From Deroplatys truncata (lineage: Eukaryota; Arthropoda; Insecta; Mantodea; Mantidae): a DNA stretch of 64,000 nucleotides. Positions 3,195 to 62,388 of this stretch are shown piece by piece. Position 1 is the stretch's first letter. Every line of letters begins with the position of its first letter. Location of the stretch: assembly GCA_030765065.1 (NCBI GenBank), contig CM060978.1:219871498-219935497 (forward strand), written 5' to 3'. Under the pieces are notes generated by a model. That model did no database searches, had not been told where the DNA came from, and worked only from the letters and a program-made list of their open reading frames with translations. Made by a program: the position numbers and the translations under genes.

Positions 3195-4454
3195 AAAAAT
3201 GTCCATTTGACTTTGCAGATATGTGTGCCATTAAGGACGTTCTATTGGATTCAAACAATGAATACAAATCCACAAAAGTTTATTCGTGTGATACCCCATT
3301 CTTTAGTTATGCACCTATCACGTCATGTGACGAAGAACGAAGTTTTTCTAGCTATAAACTCATTTTAAGTGAAAATACGAGATGTTTTTATTTGATACAT
3401 TGCGAATTCACCTTGTAATTCGCTGTAATTACATGAAAAGAAGTGTACTGTATTCATTTGCATTATTTGGGTTATTACTTTATGTATTTATTTTAAATAT
3501 TTATGTATGTGGTGCAATGAAGTCGTGAAGAAATATATTTTGTGATATGTATATTGTTTGCACTTTTTCTCCTGTCGTGAAAAATGGTTACTTCAGAATG
3601 TTAAAACAGGTACAATCATGCAAAACTGTTATGTTAGGTAATTACTTTCCGTACTCGATACACACTGGAAAATGTGACGTTTATTTTGTGCCCTACTGTA
3701 ACTAGATGTTTACGTTGAGGGAAGGGCTACCTGCACGCTTTATCTGCCATCCCACTCGAACTAAACAACGCAGTGGTTTTGCGTCTCGTAACCCTGCACC
3801 GAGCCTGATCATAATACACGCAAAAGCTAATATTTCAGATTGTTGAAAACAGTGGGGTATCAACGGTAATATTTATGAAATATACAGTTGAACTTGACAT
3901 ACGTTATTCACTTCTACGTTTTTCGCAAATATATGTTAAATTCGTTAGACATCCAACTTTGCTCAATAATACGTTTTTGGTTAGAGTATTTCCCCAAATG
4001 TCGTGTATTGGGACATCTTTTCTGGTCCTCATGTAGGAAATATACTAATTTATACATCATGCTTATGCCACGTTAAGATTTATTATGCATGGTTTATAGT
4101 AGACTGTATCCCCACTGTTGCAGCACAAAACAGCAGAAATCTTCGACAGGTATCAATATTTTCGGAACGCATTATTACTATGTCGTTTTAGATATACGGT
4201 ATTCTTAGCAGGTTGGATCTGAATAAGTATATGATGACAGTGATGAAGTAGCCTAAATAATGAAAAGTGTTCCCATTGTGCACAAGGCAATTCAAGCTAT
4301 AGAACTTATACAACGGTTTCTATGCTCATAAAACCTAAATGCTGATAACATATCTAAATTAGTGCATACAGTCGACTAATGGAAAAGCAAATAAGCAAAT
4401 AAAAAGTGACGTTTCTTTAAGCCAGTGTTAAGCACCAGTACTACGAATATTTTT
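3195..4454. other. Unassigned AT-rich stretch
   Basis: I recognise no element ends, tRNA-like boxes or protein motifs here. Open frames are at most about 62 codons. Confidence 0.5.
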
Positions 4455-5300
4455 ACTTTCTCTACTACGTATAGTAAGTAGGGGAAGTATTGTATTCCAC
4501 CCAAAAATTCGATACCGAGATTTCACCGGAAATACATGTTTTGAGGCCTCCTGAGTCCAAAAAAGTATTTTTGGAAACATGTCCGTGTGTGTGTCTGTCT
4601 GTGAACAGCATAACTCAGAAACGAACAGTCGGATAAACACCAAACTTGGCATTTAGGTTCAGTATCTTCCAGAAATGTGACACGAAGGTTTTCAAGAAAA
4701 TTCCCCTACCCCAGATTACCCTTTTCATGGAACATTTTTAAAAGATTTTAATTTTCTCAAAAATGGCTCCAACAATTTTGATTAAAATATCATATATTTA
4801 AGATACTTTCATGACCAAATAAAATGTATATCTTGAATTTTCTGGGAATGTTTCCAAAAGTATTCTTAATTGTGAACGACTTTTGCATAACTGGTAAACC
4901 ATAACAGATAGACAAAATTTTACTACACAAAAAATGTAGATCGCGTTGAAATATACAATTTATGACATATACATTTTTTGTTGTTGAGCGAACCATTTTT
5001 GAGATATTGCGTGTTATTCCCTTAAATTTTCCAATACTTATACTTTTTCTCAAATGGGAATTCGTTATTCATTTTTTTTGTCCTGGTAATGCAAAGAGAA
5101 TGGAATACTTCGCATAGCAACCAGCTCTTAAAATATTTGACTATTGCTTAAAGCCCACCAATTCACCTTGCATCTACAAGAAAATTAGCAATAATATTAA
5201 CATCTCGATATCTCGCTTAACATGAAGCATATGGAGAATAAGCGCTTGTAAAAATAGTTGTACAAGAGTAGAGAAAGTCATGTGAGTGTAACACATCAGA
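4455..5300 (+). repeat. ACTTTCTC-family copy, full length (reference copy)
   Basis: Complete 846-bp copy running from ACTTTCTCTACTACGTATAG to ACACATCAGA, with T runs directly outside both ends. Near the left end TACTA-CGTA-TAGTA can form a 5-bp hairpin. The inverted copy GTAGAGAAAGT lies about 25 bp before the right end. It is followed by ATGTG-7 nt-CACAT, which can form a second hairpin. A TG/CTG microsatellite lies about 125 bp in. No coding capacity beyond short open frames. Confidence 0.93.
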
Positions 5301-7838
5301 TTTTTTAAAAATTATGAATAAAAGTACTGGCATGAATATATGTAGTCTAAATAGTGTACTGTGTTTGTTATTTGCGTCTTTCATTTATTGTTTTATTGTA
5401 TTAAATCATATGTAATTAGAGTAATGATGTAATAAAACAGTTTCGGTTCCATAAGAAAATTTATTTCTACGTTTTTTTATTTATATTATTTTAGCCGTCT
5501 CTCTTTGAAAACGTATAACTGAGATTGTACTATATTATTATACACAATTATAAAAATCTTATGTTTTGGAGGCTCTCCAAAAATGGTAAATATTTAGGAG
5601 CCTCTCCAGATAAAGTATGCTTACGTTTGTGTCTATTTCAACTAAATTTGAAAAAGGCAAGCTTTCTTAACATGCTTAGACGTAATATTTCAACCCCATT
5701 TGCAGCAGTTTGTGCAAATTTCAGAAATCCTTGTAATCTTTTTGTATAAACTTCCTGTAATTTTATAACGAATTGGAACCAAATTTTAACGTTTTCTGAA
5801 AACTGGTTTATTTAAAAGTGGCCTCTTTATGTGAAATTGTATATCTAAAAATCGCCAACTTTTAAGAGGACACCGTATATACTGCACTTGATTTTGTGTC
5901 GATTTCAAACAACTTTGAAACGTATTGACGAACTGTGTTCAATGTTACATATTAAATTTCAGCTGTGTACTGCAGCTTTCATGATTTGTCACATGCATAC
6001 CGGCGGATAAAGGCAAGCTAATAGCTGCACCGCACCAACGAACGCATCCAAAATAACTGTTAAAATTTTCCGAGATTAACTTAACTCTAGATATTACACT
6101 TTCCAGGATTTAAAACAATGTACTTTAACGTTTTAAGAAGACCTCTCGTCCACGAGGCGAAATATCATATGAACGTAATTTTTTAAACGCTCCGTTTCTT
6201 GTAATCCGCTGATTCACTTCTGCATATGCATGTATTAATGCACAAACTGTTCTATTTTTGTGTGAATAATTTCATAGCAATCGTATAATAACCATCATAA
6301 GTACAGTCGGATTATAAAAAGAAGTGTTAGTTTGTCCACGGTTAGAAGGATTTACAAATGAGATATTGGGTTGCGTTGATGTAGCAACTCGTAGTTCTAA
6401 TCTTTTGGAGATTGCTTTCCTTTTTCTTTAGCAAACTACTACTATACAATCACTATACTATGCGACTTATTTCATTTCTTTATCAGCATTCTCCAGGGAT
6501 ACTTCAGCACATACGTGTTCAGTGCGATGGCGCTGCGGATGGAAGCACATAATCCTGATAGTATCGCTTTGAGCGCTTTCTTTTAGATGATTTTTCATTT
6601 GGTGTAGTATTTTTATTTCATAATGTAGAGAAGGGATGTAGAAAAAATGCTGAAATAAGTGAAAAATGAAAAATGTTCTCCTCTTGACATGTACTTAAAA
6701 CAATGTCAGAAATGTTTGTTACCTTCTGTATTTTTCAAGAAACATGCCTTATATTCCAACTTAATTTGTCTGTACTCAACTAAATCTTTAACCCCCCCCA
6801 AACAAAAATTGAGGACGACCAAAATCCACGCCAAATACACCAAAATATATTAATTTAAAATATATTTGATGTATTTCATATTTAGTTATAATTTCACTTG
6901 AAAAATGCCAAAGGGACTTCAAATGCTTATATTGTTACAAAATATTGTCAGCAAATTTAATAGGAGAAGGTAATCGACACACTTGCCTAAATACTTCACT
7001 TCTTGAACTTCCAACTACTTTTGTGAAAGGTTCTGTTATCATAATGCTAAACATATGGTTAATATGATTATAGCTTATAAAGAGTGAACAAACCTAGATT
7101 TCTGTGAAATATTCCCACATTTCTATCATATCATTCACAAATACATGAAAAATCAAGGAATAAAACAAAAAGGAGGGAAGCAGCTAAATCCATGAAAGCA
7201 ATTGTCTTTTAAATGGAAACAAATTTTATGCTTGATGTGTAAGAAAATAGCTTCGGAGTGGTTTACCTTAAAGTACCTTATGAATTTTCATGTTAGTTTG
7301 TCACAAATGAATTAGAATTTGCAGTGCCAGATACCTTCCCCGTCTGTGATTACGTTTCCAGCAAACTCAGCTTTCAGCACGAAGAAAACTAAGGGGTGCA
7401 ATAAAGGAAGTTTAGCGAAAACGGATTAGTCCGTGGTAAAGGTGAAACTGAAGTTATACCCTATCATTAAGGCCGTCCCAATTTACGGCGCCATGTAATG
7501 GTTTGGTCAATAAATCGTTAACGGTTTTCGATCAAAAAGAATGGAAGCTATTTAACAAAACCTCCTTGTTAATCGTCGTTGGAAGAAAAAACTCAGTTTC
7601 GGCTTTTCTCCAAGTTGGGAGAACGACTGCGAACTAGCGTATCGGTTAATAGCTCCTAAAGGAAAACTTCTGCGACATTTCTTATTAAAAACCCTTGGAA
7701 AACACCACATAATCTTGGCCATTTCACGATAAAACGGTGCACCTACATGGCGGCAACGCAAAATCCCACTTTGATAACACTGGGCGATGCTGAAGGGTAT
7801 GTTCGTTACGAATATCATTTTTCGACGATAGTGTTTTT
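5301..7838. other. Unassigned AT-rich stretch
   Basis: No repeat of the window's families, tRNA-like boxes or recognisable protein was found. A 74-codon frame (5525-5749, +) and an 88-codon frame (7552-7818, -) have no motif I know. About 7330-7830 is less AT-rich than its surroundings and could be an unrecognised old element. Confidence 0.45.
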
Positions 7839-8885: not shown

Positions 8886-9719
8886 CATGTGTTACACTCA
8901 CATGACTTTCTCTACTCTTGTACAAACTATTTTTACAAACGCTTATTCTCAATATGCTTCATGTTAATCGAGATATCGAGATGTCAATCTTATTGCTAAT
9001 TTTCTTGTAGACGCAAGGGAAATTGGTAGGCTTTAAGCGATAGTCAAATATTTTAAGAGCTAGTTGCTATGTGGAGTATTCCATTCTCTTTGCATTATCA
9101 GGACAAAAGAAAAAACGAAGAACGAATTCCCATTTGAGAAAAAGTATAAATATTGCAAAATTTAAGGGAATAACAAGCAATATCTCGAAAATGGTTCACT
9201 CAACAACAAAAATGTATATGACATAATTTGTATTTTAACGCGATCTACATTTTTTGTGTAGTAAAATTTTGTCTATCTCTATTGGTTTTCCAGTTATGAA
9301 AAAGTCGTTCACAATGAAGAATACTTTTGTAGACATTTCCAGAAAATTCAAGCTATACTTTTTATTTTTCATAAAAGTATCTGAAATATATATTTTAATC
9401 AAAATTGTTAGCCACTTTTGAGAAATTTAAAATTTTCGAAAAATGTTCCATGTAAAGGGTAATCTGGCGTGGGGGGATTTTCTTGAAAACCTTTGTGTCG
9501 CATCTCTGGAAGATACTGAACCTAAATACTAAGTTTGGTGTTTATCCGACTGTTCGTTTCTGAGTTATGCTGTTCACAGACACACACACACAGACATGTT
9601 TCCAAAAATACTTTTAGATTCAGGAGGCCTCAAAACACGTATTTCCGGTGAAATCTCGGTATCGAATTTTTTAGTGGACTGCAATACTTCCCCTACTTAC
9701 TATACATAGTAGAGAAAAT
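8886..9719 (-). repeat. ACTTTCTC-family copy, near full length
   Basis: Minus-oriented copy starting at the ATGTGTTACACTCACATGAC end and finishing at ATAGTAGAGAAAAT followed by AAAAT. It contains the CA microsatellite at about 9583. The arrangement matches the reference copy at 4455-5300. Confidence 0.92.
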
Positions 9720-15317: not shown

Positions 15318-16588
15318 GGGTCTTTCAACAAGAGTGTCCTATCTTTAACATGTGATAGCTGCCGTTGTTATTGAGTTACAGCTGTTATTGACAAACAGCC
15401 ATGGAACGCTACAGCATTCAAAAACGCGTAGAAATGGTGAAAATGTATTATCAAAATGGATAATCTGTTCGCCAAACCTTCTGTGTATTGCGTGAAGTTT
15501 ACGGTGTGCACAATCGTCCCTGTGAGAGAACGATTCGGCGTTTGATCGGTAAATTTGAAAGAAGTAGTACTGTCAGCGATCAAAGAACGCCTGCACGTAA
15601 TACGTAAGCGCTCTAACGAAAGCATAGGCGCCGTTCGTGAGAGTGTACACAAGAACGGAAACAAATGAATTGCTCGTCGAGCGCAAGAATTGGGGCTTTC
15701 GTCGACCACAACTTGGCGAATTTTGCATATGGACTTGAAGTTTCACGCTTACAAAATTGTTTTAACTCAAAAATTAAAGCCCAACGATCATAGGTTGCGC
15801 CGTGTATTTGCTGACTGGGCTATGGAGCAATTGGAAGCTGACCCAGATTTTTGTCGAAAAATCATCTTCAGCTACGAAGCCCACTTTTGGATGGATGGTT
15901 GTGTAAACAAACAAAATTGCCGCTATTGGAGCAATCACAATCCAATGCAGATTCAAGAACGACCACTTCATCCCCAAAAGGTTAGTGTTTAGTGTGTATT
16001 TTGTTATGTTGGAATCATTGGTCCATATTTTTTCCAAGATGAAGATGGAGAAGCTCTAACTGTCAATGGAGAAAGATACCGGGCTCTTATAAGGGACTGT
16101 TTTTGGCCTCAATTCGATGTAATGGATTCCAGAAACATCTGGTTCCAGCAAGATGGTGCTACATGTCATACTGCTCACGAAACAATCGATCTTTTGAAGG
16201 AGAAGTTCAGAAGTTTCAGCATTTCCCGTGGTGGTGATGTTAACTGGCCCGTGAGGTCATGCGATTTAACGCCGTTGGATTACTTCTTGTGGGGTTATGT
16301 TAAATCTCGAGTTTATGTTCACAAGCCAGAAACAATAAATGATCTTATAAATAACATCACGCGTGTTATTCGTGAAGTTGTATCTAATTTACTTGCTCCT
16401 GTCGTTGAAAATTGGGTCAACCGTATACGCGCAACCCAAAGAAGTAACGGCAGTCACTTAACTGATGCTCTCTTCCACACGTAGTGACATTAATTATGTT
16501 CCAAAATAAAAAAAGGAATAAACCTCTATTATTTATAGAACATGTTTTATTTAAGTTCAAAGATAGGACACTCTTGTTGAAAGACCCC
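15318..16588 (+). mobile_element. Tc1/mariner-superfamily DNA transposon, DD41D type (dead)
   Basis: About 1.27 kb bounded by inverted ends: GGGTCTTTCAACAAGAGTGT at the left and its complement at the right, at least 29 bp. ATA flanks both ends (15315-15317, 16589-16591), consistent with a TA target plus a neighbouring base. It encloses one transposase frame covering most of the element. The spacing of its last two catalytic residues (41 residues between them) places it with DD41D elements. The element is complete end to end but the gene is broken. Confidence 0.85.
15401..16484 (+). pseudogene. DD41D transposase pseudogene
   Basis: The product would cut and join transposon ends. The N-terminus (MERYSIQKRVEMVKMYYQNG) is a helix-turn-helix start typical of this insect transposase group (DUF4817-like, from memory). 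Catalytic region: SYEAHFW, where family members have SDEAHFW, so the first aspartate is replaced by tyrosine; WFQQDGATCH supplies the second; LTPLDYFLWG the third, 41 residues on. In-frame stops lie at 15461 (TAA), 15666 (TGA) and 15990 (TAG, probably from a tryptophan codon), with one frameshift near 15603. The natural stop is at 16482-16484. The start is the first ATG after the left inverted end and fits the usual length of about 350 codons. Confidence 0.88.
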
Positions 16589-24093: not shown

Positions 24094-24941
24094 ACTTTCT
24101 CTACTACGTATAGTAAGCAGGGGAAGTATTGTATTCCACTCAACAATTCGATACTGAGATTTCAACGGAAATGTATGTTTTGAGCCCCCTGAATCCAAAA
24201 AAAGCATTTTTGGAAACATGTCCGTGTGTGTCTGTGTGTGTGTCTGTCAATAGCATAACTCAGAAACGAACAGTTGGATAAACACCAAACTTGATATTTA
24301 GGTACAGTATCTTTCAGAGATTCGACACGAAGGTTTTCAAGAAACTCCCCCACCCCAGATTACCCTTTACATGGAACATTTTCGGAAATTTTAATTTTCT
24401 CAAAAATGGCTCTAACGATTTTGATTAAAATATCATATATTTAATATTCTTTCATGATAAATAAAATGTATATCTCGAATTTTCTGGGAATTTCTCCAAA
24501 AGTGTTTTTCATTGTCAACAACTTTTGCATAACTGGTAAACCATAAATGGTAAACAAAATTTTACTACACAAAAATGTAGATCGCATTAAAATACACAAT
24601 TCACGTGATATATATTTTTTTTGTTGAGTGAACCATTTTCGAGATATTGCTTATTATTCCCTTAAATTTTCAAATACTTATACTTTTTCTCAAATGGAAA
24701 TTCGTTATTCATTTTTTTTTGTCCTGGTAATGTAAAGAGAATGGAATACTCCACATAGCAACCAGCGCTTAAAACATTTGACTATCGCTTAAAGCCTACC
24801 ATTTTCCATTACATCCACAAGAAAATTAGCAATAAATTAACATCTTGACATATCAATTATCATGAAGCATATGGAGAATAGGCGTTTGTAAGAATAGTTT
24901 GTGCAAGAGTAGAGAAAGTCATGTGAGCGTAACACATCAGA
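24094..24941 (+). repeat. ACTTTCTC-family copy, full length
   Basis: ACTTTCTCTACTACGTATAG to AACACATCAGA, 848 bp, with the TG/CTG microsatellite at about 24223-24247 and the inverted GTAGAGAAAGT before the right end. The flanks are T-rich. Confidence 0.93.
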
Positions 24942-26418: not shown

Positions 26419-27292
26419 TCTGATGTGTTACACTCACATGACTTTCTCTACTCTTGTACAATCTATTTTTACAAACGCCTATTCTCCATATGCTTCATGT
26501 TAATCGAGATATCGAGATGTCAATCTTATTGGTAATTTTCTTGTAGATGCAAGGGGAATATGGTAGCTTTTAAGCGATAGTCAAATATTTTAACGCTGGT
26601 TGCTATGTGGCGCATTCCATTCTCTTTGCATGTCCAGGACTTAAAAAAAATGAATAACGAATTTGAGAAAAAGTATAAGTATTGGAAAATTTAAGGGAAT
26701 AACAAGAAATATCTCGAAAACGGTTCACTCAACAAAAGAAATGTATATGACATAAGTTGTGTATTTTAACGCGATCTACATTTTTTGTGCAGTAAAATTC
26801 TGTCTATCTCTTACGGTTTACCAGTTATGCAAAAGTCGTTCACAATGAAGAATACCTTTGGAGACATTCCCAGAAAATTCGAGCTATACATTTCATTTCT
26901 CATGACATTATCTTAAACATATGATATTTTAATGAAAATCGTTACAGCCATTTTTGAGAAAATTAAAATTTTCGAAAAATGTTCCATGTAAAGGGTAGTC
27001 TGGGGTGGGGGCATTTTCTTGAAAACCTTCGTGTCGCATCTCTGGAAGATACTGAACCTAAATACCAAGTTTGGTGTTTATCCGACTGTTCGTTTTTGAG
27101 TTATGCTGTTCACAGACACACACACACACAGACACACACACACACACACACAGACACACACGGACATGTCTCCAAAAATGCTTTTTTTGGATTCAGTGGG
27201 TCTCAAAACATGTATTTCCGGTGAAATCTCGGTATAGAATTTTTGGGTGGAATGCAATACTTCCCCTAGTTACTACACGTAGTAGAGAAAGT
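26419..27292 (-). repeat. ACTTTCTC-family copy, full length
   Basis: It starts TCTGATGTGTTACACTCACA after AAAAA and ends GTAGTAGAGAAAGT before AAAAA, 874 bp. The CA microsatellite is expanded (27116-27162). Two plus-strand frames of 79-81 codons overlap across it. Confidence 0.94.
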
Positions 27293-28410: not shown

Positions 28411-29945
28411 ACTTTCTCTACTACGTATAGTAAGTAGGGTAAGTATTGTATTCCACCCAAAAATTCGATAAACATTTTTGGAAACATGTCCGTGTGTGTC
28501 TGTGAAGCATAACTCAGAAACGAACAGTCGAATAAACGCCAAACTTGGTATTTAGGTTCAGTATCTTCCAGAGATGCGACACGAAGGTTTTCAGGAAAAT
28601 CCCCTCACCCCAGATTACACTTTACATGGAACATTTTTCGAAAATTTTAATTTTCTCAAAGACGGCTCTAACTATTTTGATTAATATATCATATATTTAA
28701 GATATTTTCAATGAAATGTATATCTCGAATTTTCTGGGAATGTCTCTAAAAGTATTCTTCATTGTGAACGACTTTTGCATAACTGGTAAACCATAAGAGA
28801 TAGACGAAATTTTACTACACAAAAATGTAGATCGCGTTAAGGTACACAAATTATGTCATATACATTTTTTGTGGAGTGAACTATTTTCGAGATATTCCTT
28901 GTTATTCCCCTAAATTTTCCAATATTTTTTACTTTGTTCTCAAATGGGAATTCCTTATTCATTGTTTTTGTCTTGGATATGCAAAGAGTATTAATCTGTG
29001 GCAAAGAGAATGGTGCTGCACATAGCAACCAGCTATTGAGAGATATGTCTATGCCTAAAGGCTACTGTATTTGTATATTTCATTGTAAATACAAAACAAG
29101 GGGCACATAGTAGGCCTTAGGTGATAGTCAAATATTTTTAGAACTGGTCGCTATGTGTAAAATGTAATTCTCTTTGCATGTCAAGAACATAAAAAAGAAC
29201 AACGAATTCTCAGTTGAGAAAAAGTGTATTGGAAAATTTAAAGAAATAACAAGGAATGTCTCGAAAATGGTTCACTTTATAAAAAGAATGTTTATGGCAT
29301 ATATTGTGTGTTTTAACGAGATCTACGTTTTCTATGGAGTAAAAGTTTGTCTATCGCTTGCGGTTTACCAGTTAAGCAAAAATCGTTCAGAATGAAGAGC
29401 ATTTTTGGGGACATCCCCAGAAAATTCAAGATATACATTCTATTTTCCATAAAAAGTCTTAAACATATGATATTTTAATCGAAATCGTTAGAGCCGTTTT
29501 TGAGAAAATAAAAATTTTCGACTAATGTTCCATGCAAGGGGTGGTTTGGGGTGGGGGATTTTCTTGAAAACTTTCAGGTCGCATTCCTGAAACATATTGA
29601 ACCTAAATACCAAGTTTGGTGTTTATCCGACTTCTGAGTTATGCTGTTCACAGACAGACACACAGGCACACAAGACATACACACGGACATGTTTCCAAAA
29701 ATGTTTGATTTATTTTTTAATGTCTTGGACATTCAAAGAGCATGGAATGCTCCACATAGCAACCAGCTCATAAAAGATTTGACTATCGCCTAAAGCCTAC
29801 CATATTCCCCTTACACCTACAAGAAAATTAGCAATGAGTTTCTGCAAATGTTTATGTCGATTAACATGAAGTAGATGGAAAATAAGCGTTTGTAAAAATA
29901 GTTTGTACAGGAGTAGAGAAAGTTATGTGAGTGTAGCACATCAGA
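28411..29945. repeat. ACTTTCTC-family inverted composite of three pieces
   Basis: Plus-oriented copy from ACTTTCTCTACTACGTATAG (28411) to about 29065; minus-oriented piece about 29090-29702, from the TAGGCCTTAGGTGATAGTC block to the microsatellite and CATGTTTCCAAAAATG; then a plus-oriented 3' piece 29703-29945 ending GTGTAGCACATCAGA. The middle and outer pieces are inverted relative to each other, so long hairpins are possible. The first piece lacks part of the microsatellite segment. Confidence 0.8.
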
Positions 29946-31057: not shown

Positions 31058-31526
31058 TCTTATGTTTACTTTTACATGATTTAATTCTACATGTTCTTCA
31101 AGGAACTATTCTTAAAGAAGATTATTCTTCTGTCTACTTCATATTAATTAAGTCAGACATGTACAGAAATGATTTTATTACATATTTCCTTGTAGGTACA
31201 AGGGGAACGTCAAATCTTTAAGAACGGCTTGCTATGTGATGGCTTTGAAACTCCGTTCTTTTTACATGAACACGAGAGAGAGAGAGAGAAAAGAACAGCG
31301 ACTTTCAGTTGAAAAAAATTATTTGGCAGTTCAAACAAATAATAAAGAATAAGTACATCAGAATTGTTAATACCCCAAAACATTTTGTGATATAAACTAC
31401 TTGCTTTAAAGAAATCTACATTTTCCATTTTCTCTCGCGGTTTACCAATAGAAGGGGACTTCAGAGGCTATTCCTAGAAAATGTATGATATACATTTCAT
31501 TTATCATGTATATATTCAAATATACA

Positions 31527-32754
31527 CACTACGTGATCAAAAGTATCCCGACACCTGGCTGAAAATGACGTACAAGTTCGTGGCGCCCTCCATCGGTAAC
31601 GCTGGAAGTCAATATGGTGTTGACCCACCCTTAGCCTTGATGGCTGCGTTCACTCCCGCAGGCATTCTTTCAATCAGGTGCTGGAAGGTTTCTTGGGGAA
31701 TGGCAGCCCATTCTTCACGGAGTGCGGAACTGAGGAAAGGTATCGATGTAGGTCGGTGAGGCCTGGCACGAAGTCAGCGTTCCAAAACATCCCAAAGGTG
31801 TTCTATCGGATTCAAGTCAGGACTCTGTGCAGGCCAGTCCAATACAGGGATATTATTGTCGTGTAACCACTCCGCCACAGCCCGTGCAGTATGGACAGGT
31901 GCTCGATCGTGTTGAAAGATGCAATCGCTATCCCCGAATTTCTCTTCAACAGTGGTAAGCAAGAAGGTGCTTAAAATATCAATGTAGGTCTGCGCTCTGA
32001 TCGTGCCACGCAAAACAACAAGGGGTGCAAGCCCCCTCGGGAAAAAACCCACCACCTCCGAATTTCACTGTTGGCACTACACACGCTGGCAGATGACGTT
32101 CACGGGCATTCACCATACCCACACCCTGCCATCGGATCGACACATTGTGTACCGCGAATCGTCACTCCACACAAACTTTTGCCACTGTTCAATTGTGTAA
32201 TTTTGACGCTCCTTACACCAAGCGAGGCGTCGTTTGGCATTTTCGTGCGTGATATGTGGTTTATGAGCAGCCGCTCGATCATGGAATCCAAAGTTTCTCA
32301 CCTCACACCTAACTATCATAGTTATTGGAGTGGATCCTGATGCAGTTTGGAATTACTGTGTGATGGTCTGGATAGATGTCTGTTTATTACTCTTTACGAC
32401 CCTCTTCAATTGTCGGCGGTCTCTGTCAGTCAACAAGTGAGGTCGGCCTGTTCGCTTTTGTGTTGTACATGTCCCTTCACATTTCCACTTCACTATCACA
32501 TCAGAAACAGTGGACCTAGGGATGTTTAGGAGTGTGAAAATCTCGCGTACAGACCTCTGACACAAGTGACAGCCAATCACCTGACCACGTTCGAAGTACG
32601 TAAGTTCCACGGAGTGTCCCATTCTGCTGTTTCACGATGTCTAATGACTACTGAGGTCGCGGATAATGAGTACGGCAGTAGGTGGCAGCACAATACACCT
32701 AAGATGAAAAACGCATGTTTGTGGGGGTGTCCGGATACTTTTGATCACATAGAG
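31527..32754 (-). mobile_element. Tc1-family (DD34E) DNA transposon (dead), inserted in a family copy
   Basis: The left end CACTACGTGATCAAAAGTAT and the right end, whose complement is CTCTATGTGATCAAAAGTAT, form the inverted termini; the next few bases (CCGGACAC) also match. TA lies close outside each end (31523-31524, 32755-32756). One transposase gene fills it on the minus strand. A sister copy is at 54103-55301. The element is complete end to end, with a broken gene. Confidence 0.88.
31609..32622 (-). pseudogene. Tc1-type transposase pseudogene
   Basis: Would bind the inverted ends and move the element by cut and paste. Start MGHSVELTYFERGQVIGCH at 32622. Helix-turn-helix region SVREIFTLLNIPRSTVSDVI, then a GRP-like hinge (RTGRPHLL). 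Catalytic triad visible: WSDDSRY (about 32165), FQHDRAPVHTA (about 31920) and SPDLNPIEHLWD (about 31800), with 34 residues between the last two (DD34E). A stop follows IQTITQ (about 32353), others lie at about 32110-32060, and a segment around the usual GVMVWGCF motif is lost near 32058. Near full length for the family (about 338 codons). Confidence 0.9.
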
Positions 32755-33093
32755 TATATATATATATATCCATTTTGAGTAAGTAAAACAAAAATAACTA
32801 AAATGTTCCCTGTAAAGGATAGTCTGGGGTGGGGGATTTTCTAAAGCATTTTCCTGCCGTATGTTTGGAGGGCACTGAACCTAAATGCAAATTTGATATG
32901 TATCGACTTTTCGTTTTTTACTTTTGCTGATCACACACACACCCGCCGTGCGCGGACTGTTTTCTTTTCTAAAAATGCTTCCTTTTCGGTGGTTCAGGGG
33001 GTTCCAAAATGTAAATTGCAGCTGAAATCTCGACATAGAGTTTTTGGGTGGAACACAATACTTCCTCTGCTTACTATACACAGTAGAGAAAGT

Positions 33094-35976: not shown

Positions 35977-36817
35977 ACTTTCTCTACTACGTATAGTAAG
36001 TAGGGGAAGTATTGTATTCCACCCAAAAATTCGATAACGAGATTTCACCGGAAATATATGTTTTGAGACCCCCTCAATCCAATAAAAGCATTTTTGGAAA
36101 CATGTCCGTGTGTGTGTCTGTGTGTCTGTCTGGGAACAGCATAACTCAGAAACGAACAGTCGGATAAACACCAAACTTGGTATTCAGCTTCAGTATCTTC
36201 CAGAGATGCGACACGAAGGTTTTCAAGAAAATCCCCCCACCCCCGATTACCCTTTACATGGAAGATTTTTCGAACATTTTAATTTTCTCAAAAATGGCTC
36301 TAACGATTTTGATTAAAATATCATATATCTAAGATATTGTCAAGACAAATGAAATGTATATCTCGAATTTTCTGGGAATGTCTCCAAGAGTATTCTTCAT
36401 TGTGAACGAGTTTTTCATAACTGGTAAACGATAAGAGATAGACGAAGTTTTACTACACAAAAAATGTAGATCGCGTTAAAATACACAATATATATCATAT
36501 ACATTTTTTTTGTTGAGTGAACCATTTTCGAGATATTACTTGTTATTCCCTTAAATTTTCCAATACTTATATTTTTTCTCAAATTGGTTATTCATTTTTT
36601 TATGTCCTGGACATGCAAGGAGAATGGAATGCGCCACATTGCAACCAGTGCTTAAAATATTTGACTATCGTTTAAAATTCCCCTTGCATCTACAAGAAAA
36701 TTAGCAATAATATTAACATCTCGATATCTCGATTAACATGAAGCATATGGAGAATAAGCATTTGTAAAAATAGTTTGTACAAGAGTAGAGAAAGTCATGT
36801 GAGTGTAACACATCAGA
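35977..36817 (+). repeat. ACTTTCTC-family copy, full length
   Basis: ACTTTCTCTACTACGTATAG to AACACATCAGA, 841 bp, between TTTTT runs at both ends. One of the best-preserved copies; its microsatellite is at 36108-36131. Confidence 0.95.
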
Positions 36818-39511: not shown

Positions 39512-40363
39512 ACTTTCTCTACTACGTATAGTAAGTAGGGGAAGTATTTATTGTATTCCACCCAAGAATTCGATAGCGAGATTTCACCGGAAATAAATGT
39601 TTTGAGGCCCCCTGAATCTAAAAAAAAGCATTTTTGGAAACATGTCCGTGTGTGTGTCTGTGTGTCTGTATGTCTGTAAACAGCATAAATCAGAAACGAA
39701 CAGTGGGATGAACACCAAACTTGGTATTTAGGTTCAGTATCTTCCAGAGATGCAACACAAAGGTTTTCAAGAAAATCCCCCGACCCCAGATTACTTTCTA
39801 CATGGAACATTTTTCGAAAATTTTCATTTTCTCAAAATGGCTCTAACGATTGTGATTAAAATATCATATATTTAAGATACCTTCTAGACAAATGAAATGC
39901 ATATCTCGAATTTTCTGGGAATGTCTCTAAAAGTATTCTTCATTGAGAACGACTTTTGCACAACTGGTAACGCTTAAGAGACAAACAAAATTTTACTACA
40001 CAAAAATGTAGATCACGTTAAAATACACAATTTATGTCATATACATTTTTTTGTTGAGTGAACCATTTTCGAGATATTGCTTGTTGTTCCCTTAAATTTT
40101 GCAATACTTATACTTTTTCTCAAATGGAAATTCGTTATTCTTTTTTTTTGTCCTGGTAATGCAAAGAGAATGGAATAATCAACATAGCAATGATCTCTTA
40201 AAAAATTTGACTATCGCTTAAAGCCTACCAATTCCCCTTGCATCTACAAGAAAATTAGCAATAAGATTAACATCTCGTTTAACATGAAGCATATGGAGAA
40301 TAAGCGTTTGTAAAAATAGTTTGTACAAGAGTAGAGAAATTTATGTGAGTGTAACACATCAGA
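39512..40363 (+). repeat. ACTTTCTC-family copy, full length
   Basis: ACTTTCTCTACTACGTATAG to AACACATCAGA, 852 bp, between TTTTT runs. The ordinary family arrangement, including the TG/CTG microsatellite at about 39648-39676. Confidence 0.95.
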
Positions 40364-43050: not shown

Positions 43051-43893
43051 ACTTTCTCTACTATGTATAAGTATGGGAAGTAGCGTATACTACACAAAAA
43101 TTTGATGTCAAAATTTCAACGGAAATATATGTTTTGAAGAGTCCTGAATCCAAAAAATGTATTTTTTAGAAAAAGGTCAGCATGTGTGTGTGTGAGCAAA
43201 CTCGAAAAGCAAGGTCGGAAAGCACCAAACTTAGTATTCAAGTTCAGTATCTTCCAAGGATGTGAAACGAAGATTTTCAAAAAAAATCCCCACCCCCACT
43301 ACCCTTTACATTGAAGATTTTTCGAGTTTTTTTTCTAAAAAGTGCTTCTAACAATTTTGATTAAAATACCATATATTAAATATATTTTCATGATAAATAA
43401 AACGTTTCTCTTGAATCAGCCTTTGACGTCCTCTTCATTCGGAAGGAATTTTGTATAACCTTGTGTAACTGGTAAACGATAAGCGATAGTCGAAAACCTA
43501 CCACACAAAAGATGTAGAACTCTTTAAAACACGCAATTTATTTAAAATAAGTTTTTTGTTGCATAAGCTATTTCTGGATATCCGTTATTAATGGTTCGAA
43601 TTGTTCATTTCTTCGTCGTTCTTTAGCCTTTTCAACATTCGGTTGAAAGGACTTGCGATTTAATGGAAACAGTATGGAATTTTAAGGCCAGCATATAGCG
43701 CCCAGTTATTAAACATTTGACTATCGCTGTTTTGTTTGTATCTATAACGAAATCTGCAATGTAGCCATTTCTGCAAAGGCTTATTTAGATTAAACCGTAG
43801 TAGATATAAAAGTAAGCTTTAGTAAGGATAGCTTGCATACTCACTAACAAACGATAAATGCTAGAGAAAGTTATATGAATGTACCGCATCAGA
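43051..43893 (+). repeat. ACTTTCTC-family copy, subfamily II, nested
   Basis: ACTTTCTCTACTATGTATAA to GTACCGCATCAGA, inserted into the outer copy between CAGCTTATT and TTCTTTTCTATCTGC, a T-rich site. Microsatellite at about 43180. Its middle has the subfamily II blocks (CAGCATATAGCGCCCAGTTA). Confidence 0.88.
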
Positions 43894-44093: not shown

Positions 44094-45861
44094 TCTGATG
44101 TGTTGCACTCACATAGCTTTCTCTACTCTTGTACAAACTATTTTTACAAACGCTAATTCTCCATCTACTTCATGTTAATCGAGATAAACATTTGCAGACT
44201 CCATCTTATTGCTAATTTTCTTGTTGATGTAAGGGGAATATATATTTACAAGGGCAATATAGAAATACAGTAGCCTTTAATCATAGACATTACTCTTAAT
44301 AGCTGGTTGCTATGTGCAGCACCATTCCCTTTGCCACAGATTAATACTCTTTGCATATCCAAGACAAAAAAATCTGATGTGTTACACTCACATGACTTTC
44401 TCTACTCTTGTACAATCTAATTTTACAAACGCCTATTCTCCATATGCTTCATGTTAATCGAGATATCGAGATGTCAATCTTATTGGTACTTTTCTTGTAG
44501 ATGCAAGGAAAATATGGTAGCTTTTATGCGATAGTCAAATATTTTAACGCTGGTTGCTATGTGGCGCATTCCATTCTCTTTGCATGTCCAGGACATAAAA
44601 AAAATGAATAACGCATTTGAGAAAAAGTATAAGTATTGGAAAATTTAAGGAAATAACAAGCAATATCTCGAAAACGGTTCACTCAACAAAAGAAATGTGT
44701 ATGACATAAGTTGTGTATTTTAACGCGATCTACATTATTTGTGTAGTAAAATTTTGTCTATCTCTTATGGTTTACCAGTTATGCAAAAGTCGTTCACAAT
44801 GAAGAATACTTTTGGAGACATTCCCAGAAAATTCGAGATATACATTTCATTTCTCATGACATTATGTTAAACATATGATATTTTCATCAAAATCGTTAGA
44901 GCCATTTTTGAGAAAATTAAAATTTTCGAAAAATCTTCCATGTAAAGGGTAGTCTGGGGTGGGGGGATTTTCTTGAAAACCTTCGTGTCGCATCTCTGGA
45001 AGATACTGAACCTAAATACTAAGTTTGGTGTTTATCCGACTGTTCGTTTTTGAGTTATGCTGTTCACAGACACACACACAGACACACACACAGACACACA
45101 CACACACACACACAGACACACACACGGACATGTTTCCAAAAATGCTTTTTTTGGTTTCAGGAGGTCTCAAAACATGTATTTCCGGCGAAATCTCGGTATC
45201 GAATTTTTGGGTGGAATGCAATACTTCCCCTACTTACTATACGTAGTAGAGAAAGTAAAAAATGAATAACGAATTCTCATTTGAGAAAATACGTATTGAA
45301 AAGTTTAAGGGAATAACAAGCAACATTTCGAAAATGGTTCACTCAACAACAAAAATGTAAATGACATAAATTGTGTATTTTAATGCGATCTACATTTTTT
45401 GTGTAGTAAAATTTTGTATATCTCTTATGGTTTACCAGCTATGCAAAAGTCGTTAACAATGAAGAATACTTTTGGAGAAATTCCCAGAAAATGCAAGATA
45501 TACATTTCATTTTTCATGAAAATACCTTAAACATATGAATCAAAATCGGTAGAGCCATTTTTGAGAAAATTAAAATTTTCGAAAAATCTTCCATGTAAAG
45601 GGTAATCTGGGTTGGGGGGGATTTTCTTGAAAACCTTCGTGTCGCTTCTCTGGAAGATACTGAACCTAAATACCAAGTTTGGTGTTTATCCGACTGCTTG
45701 TTTCTGAGTTATGCTGTTCACACACACACACGGACATGTTTTCAAAAATGCTATTTTGGATTCAGGGGGTCTCGAAACATATATTTCCGGTGAAATCTCG
45801 GTATCGAATTTTTGGGTGGAATACAATACCTCCCCTACTTACTACACGTAGAAGAGAAAGG
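44094..45861 (-). repeat. ACTTTCTC-family copy, nested and itself interrupted
   Basis: It starts TCTGATGTGTTGCACTCACA, runs to 44372, is interrupted by another copy, resumes at about 45257 (AATGAATAACGAATTCTCAT) and ends GTAGAAGAGAAAGG (45861). A second microsatellite lies at 45720-45733. It sits in an A-rich site of the outer subfamily II copy. Confidence 0.88.
44373..45256 (-). repeat. ACTTTCTC-family copy, innermost of the nest
   Basis: TCTGATGTGTTACACTCACA to GTAGTAGAGAAAGT, 884 bp, flanked by seven A on one side and six on the other. Other copies have about eight A at this place in the host copy, so about five A were gained. Closely similar to the copy at 26419-27292. Long CA/CAGA microsatellite (45068-45126). 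Confidence 0.93.
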
Positions 45862-46987: not shown

Positions 46988-47125
46988 ACTTTCTCTACTA
47001 CGTATAGTAAGTAGGGGAAGTATTGAATTCCACCCAAAAATTCGATACCGAGATTTCACCGGAAATACATGTTTTGAGACCCCCTGAATCCCAAAAAAAA
47101 GCATTTTTGGAAACTTGTCCGTGCG

Positions 47126-47176
<51 letters not shown>

Positions 47177-47509
47177 TGTGAACAGCATAACTCAGAAACA
47201 AACAGTTGGATAAACACCAAACCTGGTATTTAGGTTCTAATTTTCTTAAAAATGTCTCTAACGATTTTGATTAAAATATCATATGTTTAAGATATTTTCA
47301 TGACAAATGAAATGTATATCTCGAATTTTTGGGAATGTCTCCAAAAGTATTCTTCATTGTGAATGGTATACACCACATAGCAACCAGCTCTTAAAATATT
47401 TGCCTATCGCTTAAAACCTCTCGATTAACGTGAAGTAGATGGAGAATAAGCGTTTGTAAAAATAGTTTGTACAATAGTAGAGAAAGTCATGTGAGTGTAA
47501 AACATCAGA
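46988..47509 (+). repeat. ACTTTCTC-family copy, internally deleted
   Basis: Both ends are present (ACTTTCTCTACTACGTATAG; AAACATCAGA before a T run), but two middle segments are missing, leaving 522 bp. It has the longest uninterrupted TG run of the family (about 47130-47174). Confidence 0.93.
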
Positions 47510-48194: not shown

Positions 48195-48964
48195 ATCTGA
48201 TGTGTTACACTCATATGACTTTCTCTACTCTTGTACAAACTATTTTTACAAACGCTTATTCTCCATATGCTTCATGTTAATCGAGAGGTTTTAAGCGATA
48301 GGCAAATATTTTAAGAGCTGGTTGCTATGTGGAGTATTCCACTTTCTTTGCACTACCAGGACAAAAGAAATTGAATAATGGATTTGAGATAAAGTATAAG
48401 TATTCGAAAATTTAAGGGAATAACAAGCAATATGTCGAAAACGGTTCACTTAACAAAAAAAGGTATATAACATAAATTGTGTATTTTAACGCCATCTACA
48501 TTTTTTGTGTAGTAAAATGCTGTTTATCTCTTATGGTTTACCAGTTATGCAAAAGTCGTTCACAATGAATACTTTTGGAGACATTCCCAGAAAATTCAAG
48601 ATATACATTTTATTTGTTATGAAAGTATCTTATATATATATATATATATATATATATGATATTTTAATCAAAATCGTTAGAGCCATTTTTGAGAAAATTA
48701 AAATTTTCGAAAAATGTTCCATATAAAGAGTAATCTGAAAACCTTCGTGTCACCTCTCTGGAAGATATTGAACCTAAATATCAAGTTTGGTGTTTATCCG
48801 ACTGTTTGCTTCTGAGTTATGCTGTTCACACACAGGGACATGTTTTAAAAAATGCTTTATATGCATTTAATACACCTCAAAACATGTAGTTCCGTTGAAA
48901 TCTCGGTATCGATTTTTGGTGGAATGCAATATTTCCTCTATTTACTATACGTAGTAGAGAAAGT
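48195..48964 (-). repeat. ACTTTCTC-family copy
   Basis: TCTGATGTGTTACACTCATA to GTAGTAGAGAAAGT. Missing the TAGATGCAAGGGGAATTGG block near the start. A (TA)n run (about 48632-48656) has grown at the ACATATGATATTT site. Confidence 0.93.
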
Positions 48965-57955: not shown

Positions 57956-58799
57956 ATTTCCTCTACGACGTATAGTAAGTAGGGGAACTATTGTATTCCA
58001 CCCAAAAATTCTATAAAGAGATTTCACCGGAAATATATGTTTTGAGGCTCCCTGAATCTAAAAAATATTTTTGGAAACATGTCCGTGTGTGTGTGTGTCT
58101 GTGAACAGCATAACTCAGAAATGAACAGTCGGATAAACACCAAACTTGGTAGTTAGGTTCAATATCTTCCAGAGATGCGACACAAAGGTTTTCAAGAAAA
58201 TCCCCCCATCCCAGATTACCCTTTATATGGAACATTTTTCAAAAATTTTAATTTTCTCAATAATGGCTCTAACGAGTTAATTAAAATATCATATATTTAA
58301 GATACTTTCATGACAACTAAAATGTATATCTTGAATTTTCTGGGAAAGTCTCCAAAAGTATTCTTCATTATGAACGACTTTTGCATAAATGGTAAACCAT
58401 AAGAGATAGACAAAACTTTTTCTACACAAAAAATGTAGATCGCGTTAAAATACGCAATTTATGTCATATACATTTTTTTTTTGTTGAGTGAACCATTTTC
58501 GATATATTACTTGTTATTCCCTTAATTTTTCCAATACTTATACTTTTTCTCAAATGTGAATTAGTTATTCATTTTTTTTGTCCTGGTAATGCAAAGAGAA
58601 TGAAATGCTCCACATAGCAACCAGCTTTTAAAATATTTGACTATCGCTTAAAGGTTACCAATTCCCCTTGCATGTACAAGAAAATTAGCAATAAGATTAT
58701 CATCTCGATATCTTGATTAACATGAAGCATATGGCGAATAAGCGTTTGATAGAATAGTTTGTACAAGAAAAGAGAAAGTCATGTGAGTGTAACACATAA
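57956..58799 (+). repeat. ACTTTCTC-family copy, full length
   Basis: ATTTCCTCTACGACGTATAG to AACACATAAA, 844 bp; both outer ends carry changes. Ordinary internal arrangement with a short TG microsatellite at 58087-58100. Confidence 0.92.
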
Positions 58800-61539: not shown

Positions 61540-62388
61540 TCTGTGTTACACTCACATGACTTTCACTACTCTTGCACAAACTATTTTTACAAACGCTTAT
61601 TCTCCAAATGCTTCATGTTGATCGAGATATCGAGATGTTAATCTTATTGCTAATTTTCTTGTAGATGCAAGGGGAATTGGTAGTATTTAAGCGATGGCCA
61701 AATCTTTTAAGAGCTGGTTGCTATGTGGCGCATTTCATTCTCTTTGTGTGTCCAGGACATAAAAAAAATGAATAACGAATTCGCATTTGAAAAAAGTATT
61801 AGAAAATTTAAGGGAATAACGAGCAATATCTCGAAAATGGATCACTCAACAACAACAAAAATGTATATGACATAAATTGTGTATTTTAACGCGATCTACA
61901 TTTTTTGTGTAGTAAAATTTTGTCTATCTCTTTTAGTTTACCAGTTATGCAAAAGTCGTTCACAACGAAGAATACTTTTGGAGACATTTATAGAAAATTC
62001 GAGATATACATTTTATTTGTCATGAAAGTATCTTAAATATATGATATTTTAATCAAAATCGTTAGAGCCATTTTTGAGAAAATAACATTTTCGAAAAATG
62101 CTTTATGTAAAGGGTAATCTGGGGTGGGGGGATTTTCTTGAAAACCTTCGTGTCGCATCTCTGGAAGATACTGAACCTAAATACCAAGTTTGGTGTTTAT
62201 TCGACTGTTCGTTTCTGAGTTATGCTGTTCACACATACACACACAGGCACACACACGAACATGTTTCCAAAAATACTTTTTTTGGATTCAGGGGAGTCTC
62301 AAAACATGTATTTCCGGTGAAATCTCGGTATCACATTTTTGGGTGGAATACAATACTTCCCCTACTTACTATACGTAGTAGAGAAAGT
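61540..62388 (-). repeat. ACTTTCTC-family copy, full length
   Basis: It starts TCTGTGTTACACTCACATGA after AAAAA and ends GTAGTAGAGAAAGT before AAAAA, 849 bp. Microsatellite at 62231-62257. A 118-codon plus frame runs through it and out of the end; this is a by-product. Confidence 0.94.

Follow-up and report, generated by a model that had tools for sequence, protein, structure and literature searches.

Among Helentron-associated non-autonomous elements, those of the DINE-1/HINE type from Drosophila, Metaseiulus and Culex are characterised, in the portion of PMC4067079 on which we draw, by T-rich targets, a variable number of element-borne T's and no evidence of target duplication; in that portion, the end that bears the carried T's is left unclear. 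The repeat family reported here, from the mantis Deroplatys truncata, resembles them as described there in its subterminal inverted repeats, 5' palindrome, 3' stem-loop and a microsatellite in some copies, in a T-rich target with terminal T's carried and no duplication, and in consisting of numerous non-autonomous copies of an element encoding Rep, helicase and endonuclease (PMC4067079). Compared by description, it departs from that account in that five T's are carried at four sites, divided 1+4 at one of them, and in that insertions often fall in the family's own T8 tract (PMC4067079). With the Helitron2 and FoHeli elements of Fusarium, as far as the excerpted account goes (PMC5148889), it shares asymmetric terminal inverted repeats, the 3' repeat lying 20-40 bp inside, and hairpins at both ends, which are reported for some fungal subgroups. 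The fungal elements described in this excerpt are without an endonuclease domain, unlike the element found here, and their targets are TTTT^T/C (Helitron2) and TNAT^T (FoHeli1/2) (PMC5148889). The oyster Cg_HINE, in the part of its description considered (PMC7492417), is likewise a HINE that has internal repeats, inserts at T-rich sites without duplication and is linked to tandem arrays. Where Cg_HINE has satellite-like central arrays, the present family shows a short TG tract and nesting of copies; that description links Cg_HINE to no autonomous partner, whereas one was found here (PMC7492417). We conclude with great confidence that the present family is a non-autonomous Helentron (HINE/DINE-1-like), and that its ends belong equally to an autonomous Helentron, about 10 kb long, residing in this genome. 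The family is newly described; the Helentron class is already known. Its assignment, which agrees with the original prediction, is supported by the anatomy of the copies, the coding partner, the Rep motif and the empty sites.

The window, the whole stretch of 64,000 bases that was analysed (C4:219,871,498-219,935,497 of a 4.29-Gb host assembly), contains a reference full-length copy of the family of about 850 bp on the plus strand at 4454..5304, with the form T-ACTTTC...CAGA-TTTT, the empty site of L081, described below, serving as the model for its terminal T's. The 11-bp terminal inverted repeat ACTTTCTCTAC occupies 4455..4465 at the 5' end, and its subterminal counterpart GTAGAGAAAGT lies at 5268..5278, 22 bp inside the CAGA end, so that the two repeats are asymmetric. 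A 5' palindrome (4455..4488) contains the TACTA/TAGTA stem (4463-4467/4472-4476) together with the whole inverted repeat, and a 3' hairpin, ATGTG-AGTGTAA-CACAT, is found at 5280..5296 (stem 5280-5284/5292-5296). Between them are a TG microsatellite at about 4580..4603, which comprises 25-30 dinucleotides in some other copies, and an internal T8 tract at 5072..5079, a recurrent target for further copies. The constant ends, hairpins, TG microsatellite and T flanks that had been claimed from the sequence were thus borne out: every feature was seen in the copy at 4455-5300, with T-runs on both flanks, and aligned family copies likewise show these ends, the two stems and the TG tract. The 3' stem ATGTG/CACAT and the 5' palindrome are both present in the sequence. 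When folded as DNA, the 5' end is predicted to form a longer hairpin that takes in the whole inverted repeat (-4.9 kcal/mol, z -2.44), and the predicted 3' hairpin is weak, hardly more stable than shuffled sequences (z -0.75 and -0.92).

Allowing at most one mismatch, ACTTTCTCTAC has 40 matches in the window against 1.43 expected, the largest count in a shuffle being 5. A profile built from 10 full-length copies covered 19,411 of the 64,000 bases (30.3%) in 42 stretches. By profile and flank alignment, further full-length copies were located on the plus strand at 24094..24941 (left flank TTTTAT), 35977..36817, 39512..40363, 43051..43893 (diverged) and 57957..58799, and on the minus strand at 8887..9718, 26419..27292, 48196..48964 (left flank TTTATT) and 61542..62388. 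There is also a nested pair at 44094..45860 (minus), in which 44373-45256 sits within the internal T tract of a copy made up of 45258-45860 and 44094-44372. The profile additionally detected a cluster of partial and inverted copies at 28411..29945 and an internally deleted copy that keeps both ends at 46988..47509 (plus). In the flank alignment of the 11 full-length window copies, TTTTT immediately precedes the 5' end in seven, the targets of the other four (24094, 43051, 48196 and 57957) are interrupted by A, and T-runs follow most 3' ends. The CAGA 3' end is not universal, copies 8887, 57957 and 61542 being different. Apart from the family, the window carries a minisatellite at 527-649 with 3.4 copies of a 36-bp unit.

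Across the genome, the exact 29-base 5' end has 107,557 occurrences preceded by TTTTT and 12,388 preceded by TTVTT, 119,945 in all, and a reversed control of the same 29 bases gave zero genome-wide matches. In the window, the form preceded by TTTTT has 6 occurrences, a density of 93.75 per Mb; its genome-wide density is 25.1 per Mb. In loci chosen for other reasons, the family covers 1.3% of 20 Rep loci (L009-L028; any family in two of 20) and 5.3% of L085-L090 (any family in two of six). Since the window is about 3.7 times richer than the genome and cover in unrelated loci is low, we regard the window as a local concentration of the family. The predicted share of about 30% accordingly holds for the window and not as a genome figure; crude scaling would put the family at around 8% of the genome. 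Among the matches, contig C16 (707 Mb) is about twice the size of C1 (339 Mb), the next largest seen, and this size, together with some 16 chromosome-scale contigs, might suggest a resemblance to an X0 insect karyotype.

The original prediction had proposed a search for a Rep/helicase element sharing the family ends, and one was found. A Helitron Rep profile search of the genome gave at least 152 places, and one set of these, with scores close to one another, lay in open frames reaching 2,543 aa. Seven Rep loci, picked by their long open frames, were read: A1 (L033, L029 and L030) and A2 (L034, L031 and L032) in full, and five more on the plus strand at both ends only, with open frames of 1,711-2,345 aa in the Rep profile search. 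All seven bear the family ends, and their 3' ends are identical over 48 letters ending GTAACACATCAGA, followed by T's. In A1 the element measures 10,030 bp from ACTTTC to CAGA; compared with the non-autonomous consensus, its first 714 bp are 90.2% and its last 33 bp 93.9% identical. In the autonomous copy used for this comparison, no counterpart was found for about 110 bp of the non-autonomous family (profile positions ~710-820), so that the family did not arise from that copy by simple deletion. A1 and A2, which lie on different chromosomes, have a 9,550-bp stretch in common at 99.6% identity, which shows activity to be recent. Each contains a stop-free frame of 2,408 codons.

The frame of A1, the copy on which the Pfam scan was run, encodes protease-like, Rep, PIF1 helicase and endonuclease domains. 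The families matched were Herpes_teg_N, DUF6570, Helitron_like_N, PIF1, Pif1_2B and Exo_endo_phos_2, with PF14214 at 8.9e-28, PIF1 (PF05970) at 1.8e-27 and PF21530 among the matches; the C-terminal Exo_endo_phos_2 match (1.4e-05, 25.4 bits) falls below the Pfam cut-off of 27.4. Helicase motifs were recognised in both A1 and A2. Rep motif 2 has the Helentron form in both proteins read, VEFQMRGSPHEH, with S between G and P, a criterion taken from the excerpted text of PMC4067079. HUH and two-tyrosine motifs are likewise present in both proteins, and the motif strings shared by the two include YIIKYISK, GSAGVGKS, GDFN and SDHKP, of which GDFN and SDHKP speak for the AP-endonuclease-like domain at the C-terminus despite its sub-threshold Pfam score. 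In its GSPHxH Rep motif 2, PIF1 helicase, C-terminal Exo_endo_phos_2 and single long ORF, the element is like the mite Helentron-Mo as described in that excerpt, where an RPA ORF is also reported for the mite element (PMC4067079). Unlike Helentron-Mo in the same description, it has an N-terminal Herpes_teg_N-like domain, a 21-residue repeat array and an extra 5' unit in front (PMC4067079). The Herpes_teg_N-like domain (36.5 bits) lies at the N-terminus of the A1 protein (approximately L029:2986-5000), and the charged 21-residue repeats that follow it have a period of 63 bp; a literature search pairing Helitron with Herpes_teg_N found no paper. Taken together, seven loci bear the family ends, and Rep, PIF1 and endonuclease domains are present in the one protein scanned against Pfam; these long coding copies with the same ends probably move the non-autonomous repeat. 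Higher-scoring Rep domains (187-196 bits), with one internal stop each, were seen at L009-L012 and may belong to another Helitron type.

The empty-site comparison that had been proposed with the original prediction was carried out on sites where the element interrupts a repeated sequence. At four well-defined sites (L066/L076, L081, A2 and a7), the filled form has five T's more than the empty form. Two of these are T-runs. The insertion inside autonomous copy A2 is flanked by T6 and T7, and the uninserted tract is T8 in six of six cases; at autonomous locus a7 the flanks are T6 and T6, and uninserted family copies have a mode of T7 (39 of 47). Locus a6 was kept out of the count because its host T run is undefined. 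At T-runs alone, a duplication of T5 and T's carried by the element are not separable, so that targets interrupted by A were needed. Among nine sites with spanning matches, only A2 was clean, the rest being too diverged for exact counts. In a combined empty-site query of nine sites, from which L065 had been left out beforehand as low-complexity, all 40 scored places were the L081 repeat; the eight sites without a scored place were w48196, A2_15017, w24094, A1, L071, L073, L074 and L072.

Two host repeats provided interrupted targets. At the first, L066/L076, whose two filled loci may represent one insertion event, the joined flanks are spanned by all 40 scored genomic places, 16 of which were read. 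The empty form is TACTTATTTTTATTGTA in 13 of the 16; among the others, L102 has one extra T, L110 one substitution and L101 six bases fewer. In L076 the filled form consists of TACTTATT, the element, TTTTT and TTTATTGTA. The short form in L101 is what a duplication predicts, and a deletion accounts for it equally. This site fits a duplication only if one substitution followed. At the second, L081, the junction is again spanned by all 40 scored places, and in the 10 read the empty form is exactly GCTTTTATATTTTTATCCCC in six and carries one or two changes in four. The filled form reads GCTTTTAT, T-ACTTTC..CAGA-TTTT and ATTTTTATACCC. Target duplication is excluded here, the insertion parses as T^A and not T^T, and the carried T's are split into one at the 5' end and four at the 3' end, as read from the one filled copy, L081.

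A rival reading, raised together with the original prediction, takes the family for a MITE that a DDE transposase mobilises, duplicating TTTTT at the target site. It would account for the seven of 11 window copies with TTTTT before the 5' end, for the T-runs after most 3' ends and for the five additional T's at T-run empty sites, which a T5 duplication predicts equally. It would also explain why a TTATT right flank goes with a TTATT left flank (8 of 16 against 2 of 35; Fisher p 0.0006). For this comparison 20 TTVTT copies were taken, the 3' end being assigned by pattern in 13 and not in seven; 12 TTVTT copies stand in the flank table, L078 having been omitted as too short and L084 having been entered with the wrong end letters. 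Suggested by the extra T's and the two-sided TTATT, a 5-bp duplication was rejected on the two host-repeat empty sites. At the first it requires TTATT at the right junction, but TTTTT is seen, and the TTATT association there is now explained by an A/T-rich empty target. At L081 it predicts an 18-nt empty form, but the longer form is present in all 10 copies read, so that duplication is out there too; the other TTATT cases are without an empty site. Against a MITE there are also the asymmetric inverted repeats, terminal on one side and 22 bp inside on the other, and the Rep, helicase and endonuclease encoded by the element read with the same ends. A DDE fragment does occur within a diverged family copy on the minus strand at 31066..33093 (a copy that starts with its 5' end at 33093 and reaches profile position 844 at 31066), in a frame running from 32064 downwards (DDE_3, 9.8e-13). 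This fragment has its own 50-bp inverted repeats, at about 31506-31555 and 32726-32773 (84% over 50 bp), and is therefore read as a nested Tc1/mariner-like element (~31506-32773) that splits the copy. The MITE reading is very improbable: insertion into T-rich sequence without target duplication was seen at two A-interrupted, resolvable sites. Elsewhere in the window, a second transposase remnant of the mariner/Tc1 type lies at 15669-16481 (plus); for the 163-aa frame at 15993, Pfam gave no match at a threshold of 0.01.

Still less credible is a derivation from canonical Helitrons (Helitron1). The genome does contain Rep domains of up to 196 bits against PF14214, but no 5'-TC or 3'-CTRR end is found in the copies aligned, the target is T-rich and not A^T, and the partner has an endonuclease-like domain and a GSPHxH Rep motif. 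More serious, and in our judgement still unlikely, is the proposal that a different Helentron family of this genome drives the HINE, the seven loci being cousins that share its ends. It would fit the lack of a match for positions ~710-820 in the autonomous copy compared and the 5' identity of ~90%, and the Rep search pointed to numerous other loci, among them long frames whose scores differ slightly. On the other side, the last 33 bp are 94% identical, and the truncated outer unit that serves as the 5' end of a moving block in a6 and a7 is present in all seven loci. Since this unit serves the a6/a7 block and occurs in the seven loci, the ends of different copies are interchangeable in practice. 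For the preferred reading, a non-autonomous Helentron mobilised by the same-ended element, a mechanism can be proposed from known Helentron behaviour, to which nicking, strand transfer and rolling-circle copying belong. The protein would nick within the T tract at the element termini, one strand would be peeled off from the 5' end with a stop at the 3' hairpin, and the peeled strand would be joined into T-rich targets by rolling-circle replication. The number of carried T's would be set by the position of the nick within the T's. By this analogy, the family would transpose by a rolling circle.

The family's own T7-8 tract is hit often: genome-wide, nested junctions number 18,247 on the left and 18,072 on the right, and 119,384 tracts are uninserted, so that about 13% of recognisable tracts are occupied, a rough figure because the patterns differ in length. 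In a smaller sample of 264 kb, biased towards autonomous loci, there were 13 left and 7 right nested junctions. An excess of left over right junctions, considered as a rolling-circle signature, was not seen genome-wide; the left and right patterns are unequal in length and degeneracy, so that the counts, which fit symmetric nesting, allow no conclusion. Among 100 listed left junctions, several same-strand pairs are ~610-670 bp apart and others 443 or 451 bp; pairs spaced in this way are head-to-tail runs of 3'-cut copies. Near the start of C1, at C1:20,306-122,564, there is a tandem array with a unit of ~3,409 bp, represented by 31 places among the matches listed at a spacing of 3,407-3,410 bp. 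Its adjacent units are 98.9% identical, and C1:20,001-27,500 (L112) contains two whole family copies, each spanning profile positions 3-853.

In each of the seven autonomous loci, the autonomous 5' end is preceded by a further, truncated 5' unit, which spans profile positions 1-626, is joined to it by the same T4 junction and is 98.2-99.8% identical across the loci. Further outer units, present in four loci, are 95.9-97.8% identical and the right-hand remainders r1 93.1-97.0%; being less alike than the 1-626 unit, these probably represent separate local hosts. The outer unit and the autonomous element of a6 and of a7 lie together as a single block within a reversed family copy that is otherwise continuous. 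Because this block interrupts one continuous copy, the outer 5' end must have been used with the autonomous 3' end, and the moving autonomous unit is, clearly in these two loci, a compound of the two. Locus a5 has two right-hand remainders and one further outer left unit, which the compound model alone does not explain. Such a compound fits rolling-circle transposition that halts at the first 3' end; cut-and-paste could also combine such ends. We raise tentatively, as a possibility that falls somewhat short of our favour, that the family carries its own landing pad and that self-nesting has changed its master, the captured outer 5' end being functional and replication running from the outer 5' end to the first 3' end.

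The insertion of five carried T's without target duplication bears on how endonuclease and Rep cut. The genome harbours a very large Helentron/HINE system with near-identical autonomous copies, the two that were fully read having uninterrupted frames, and its nested and compound copies are natural material for tests of rolling-circle directionality. If the landing-pad reading is true, it would provide a route by which Helentrons arrive at composite and tandem structures, and would offer a direct test of one-way 5'-to-3' transposition.
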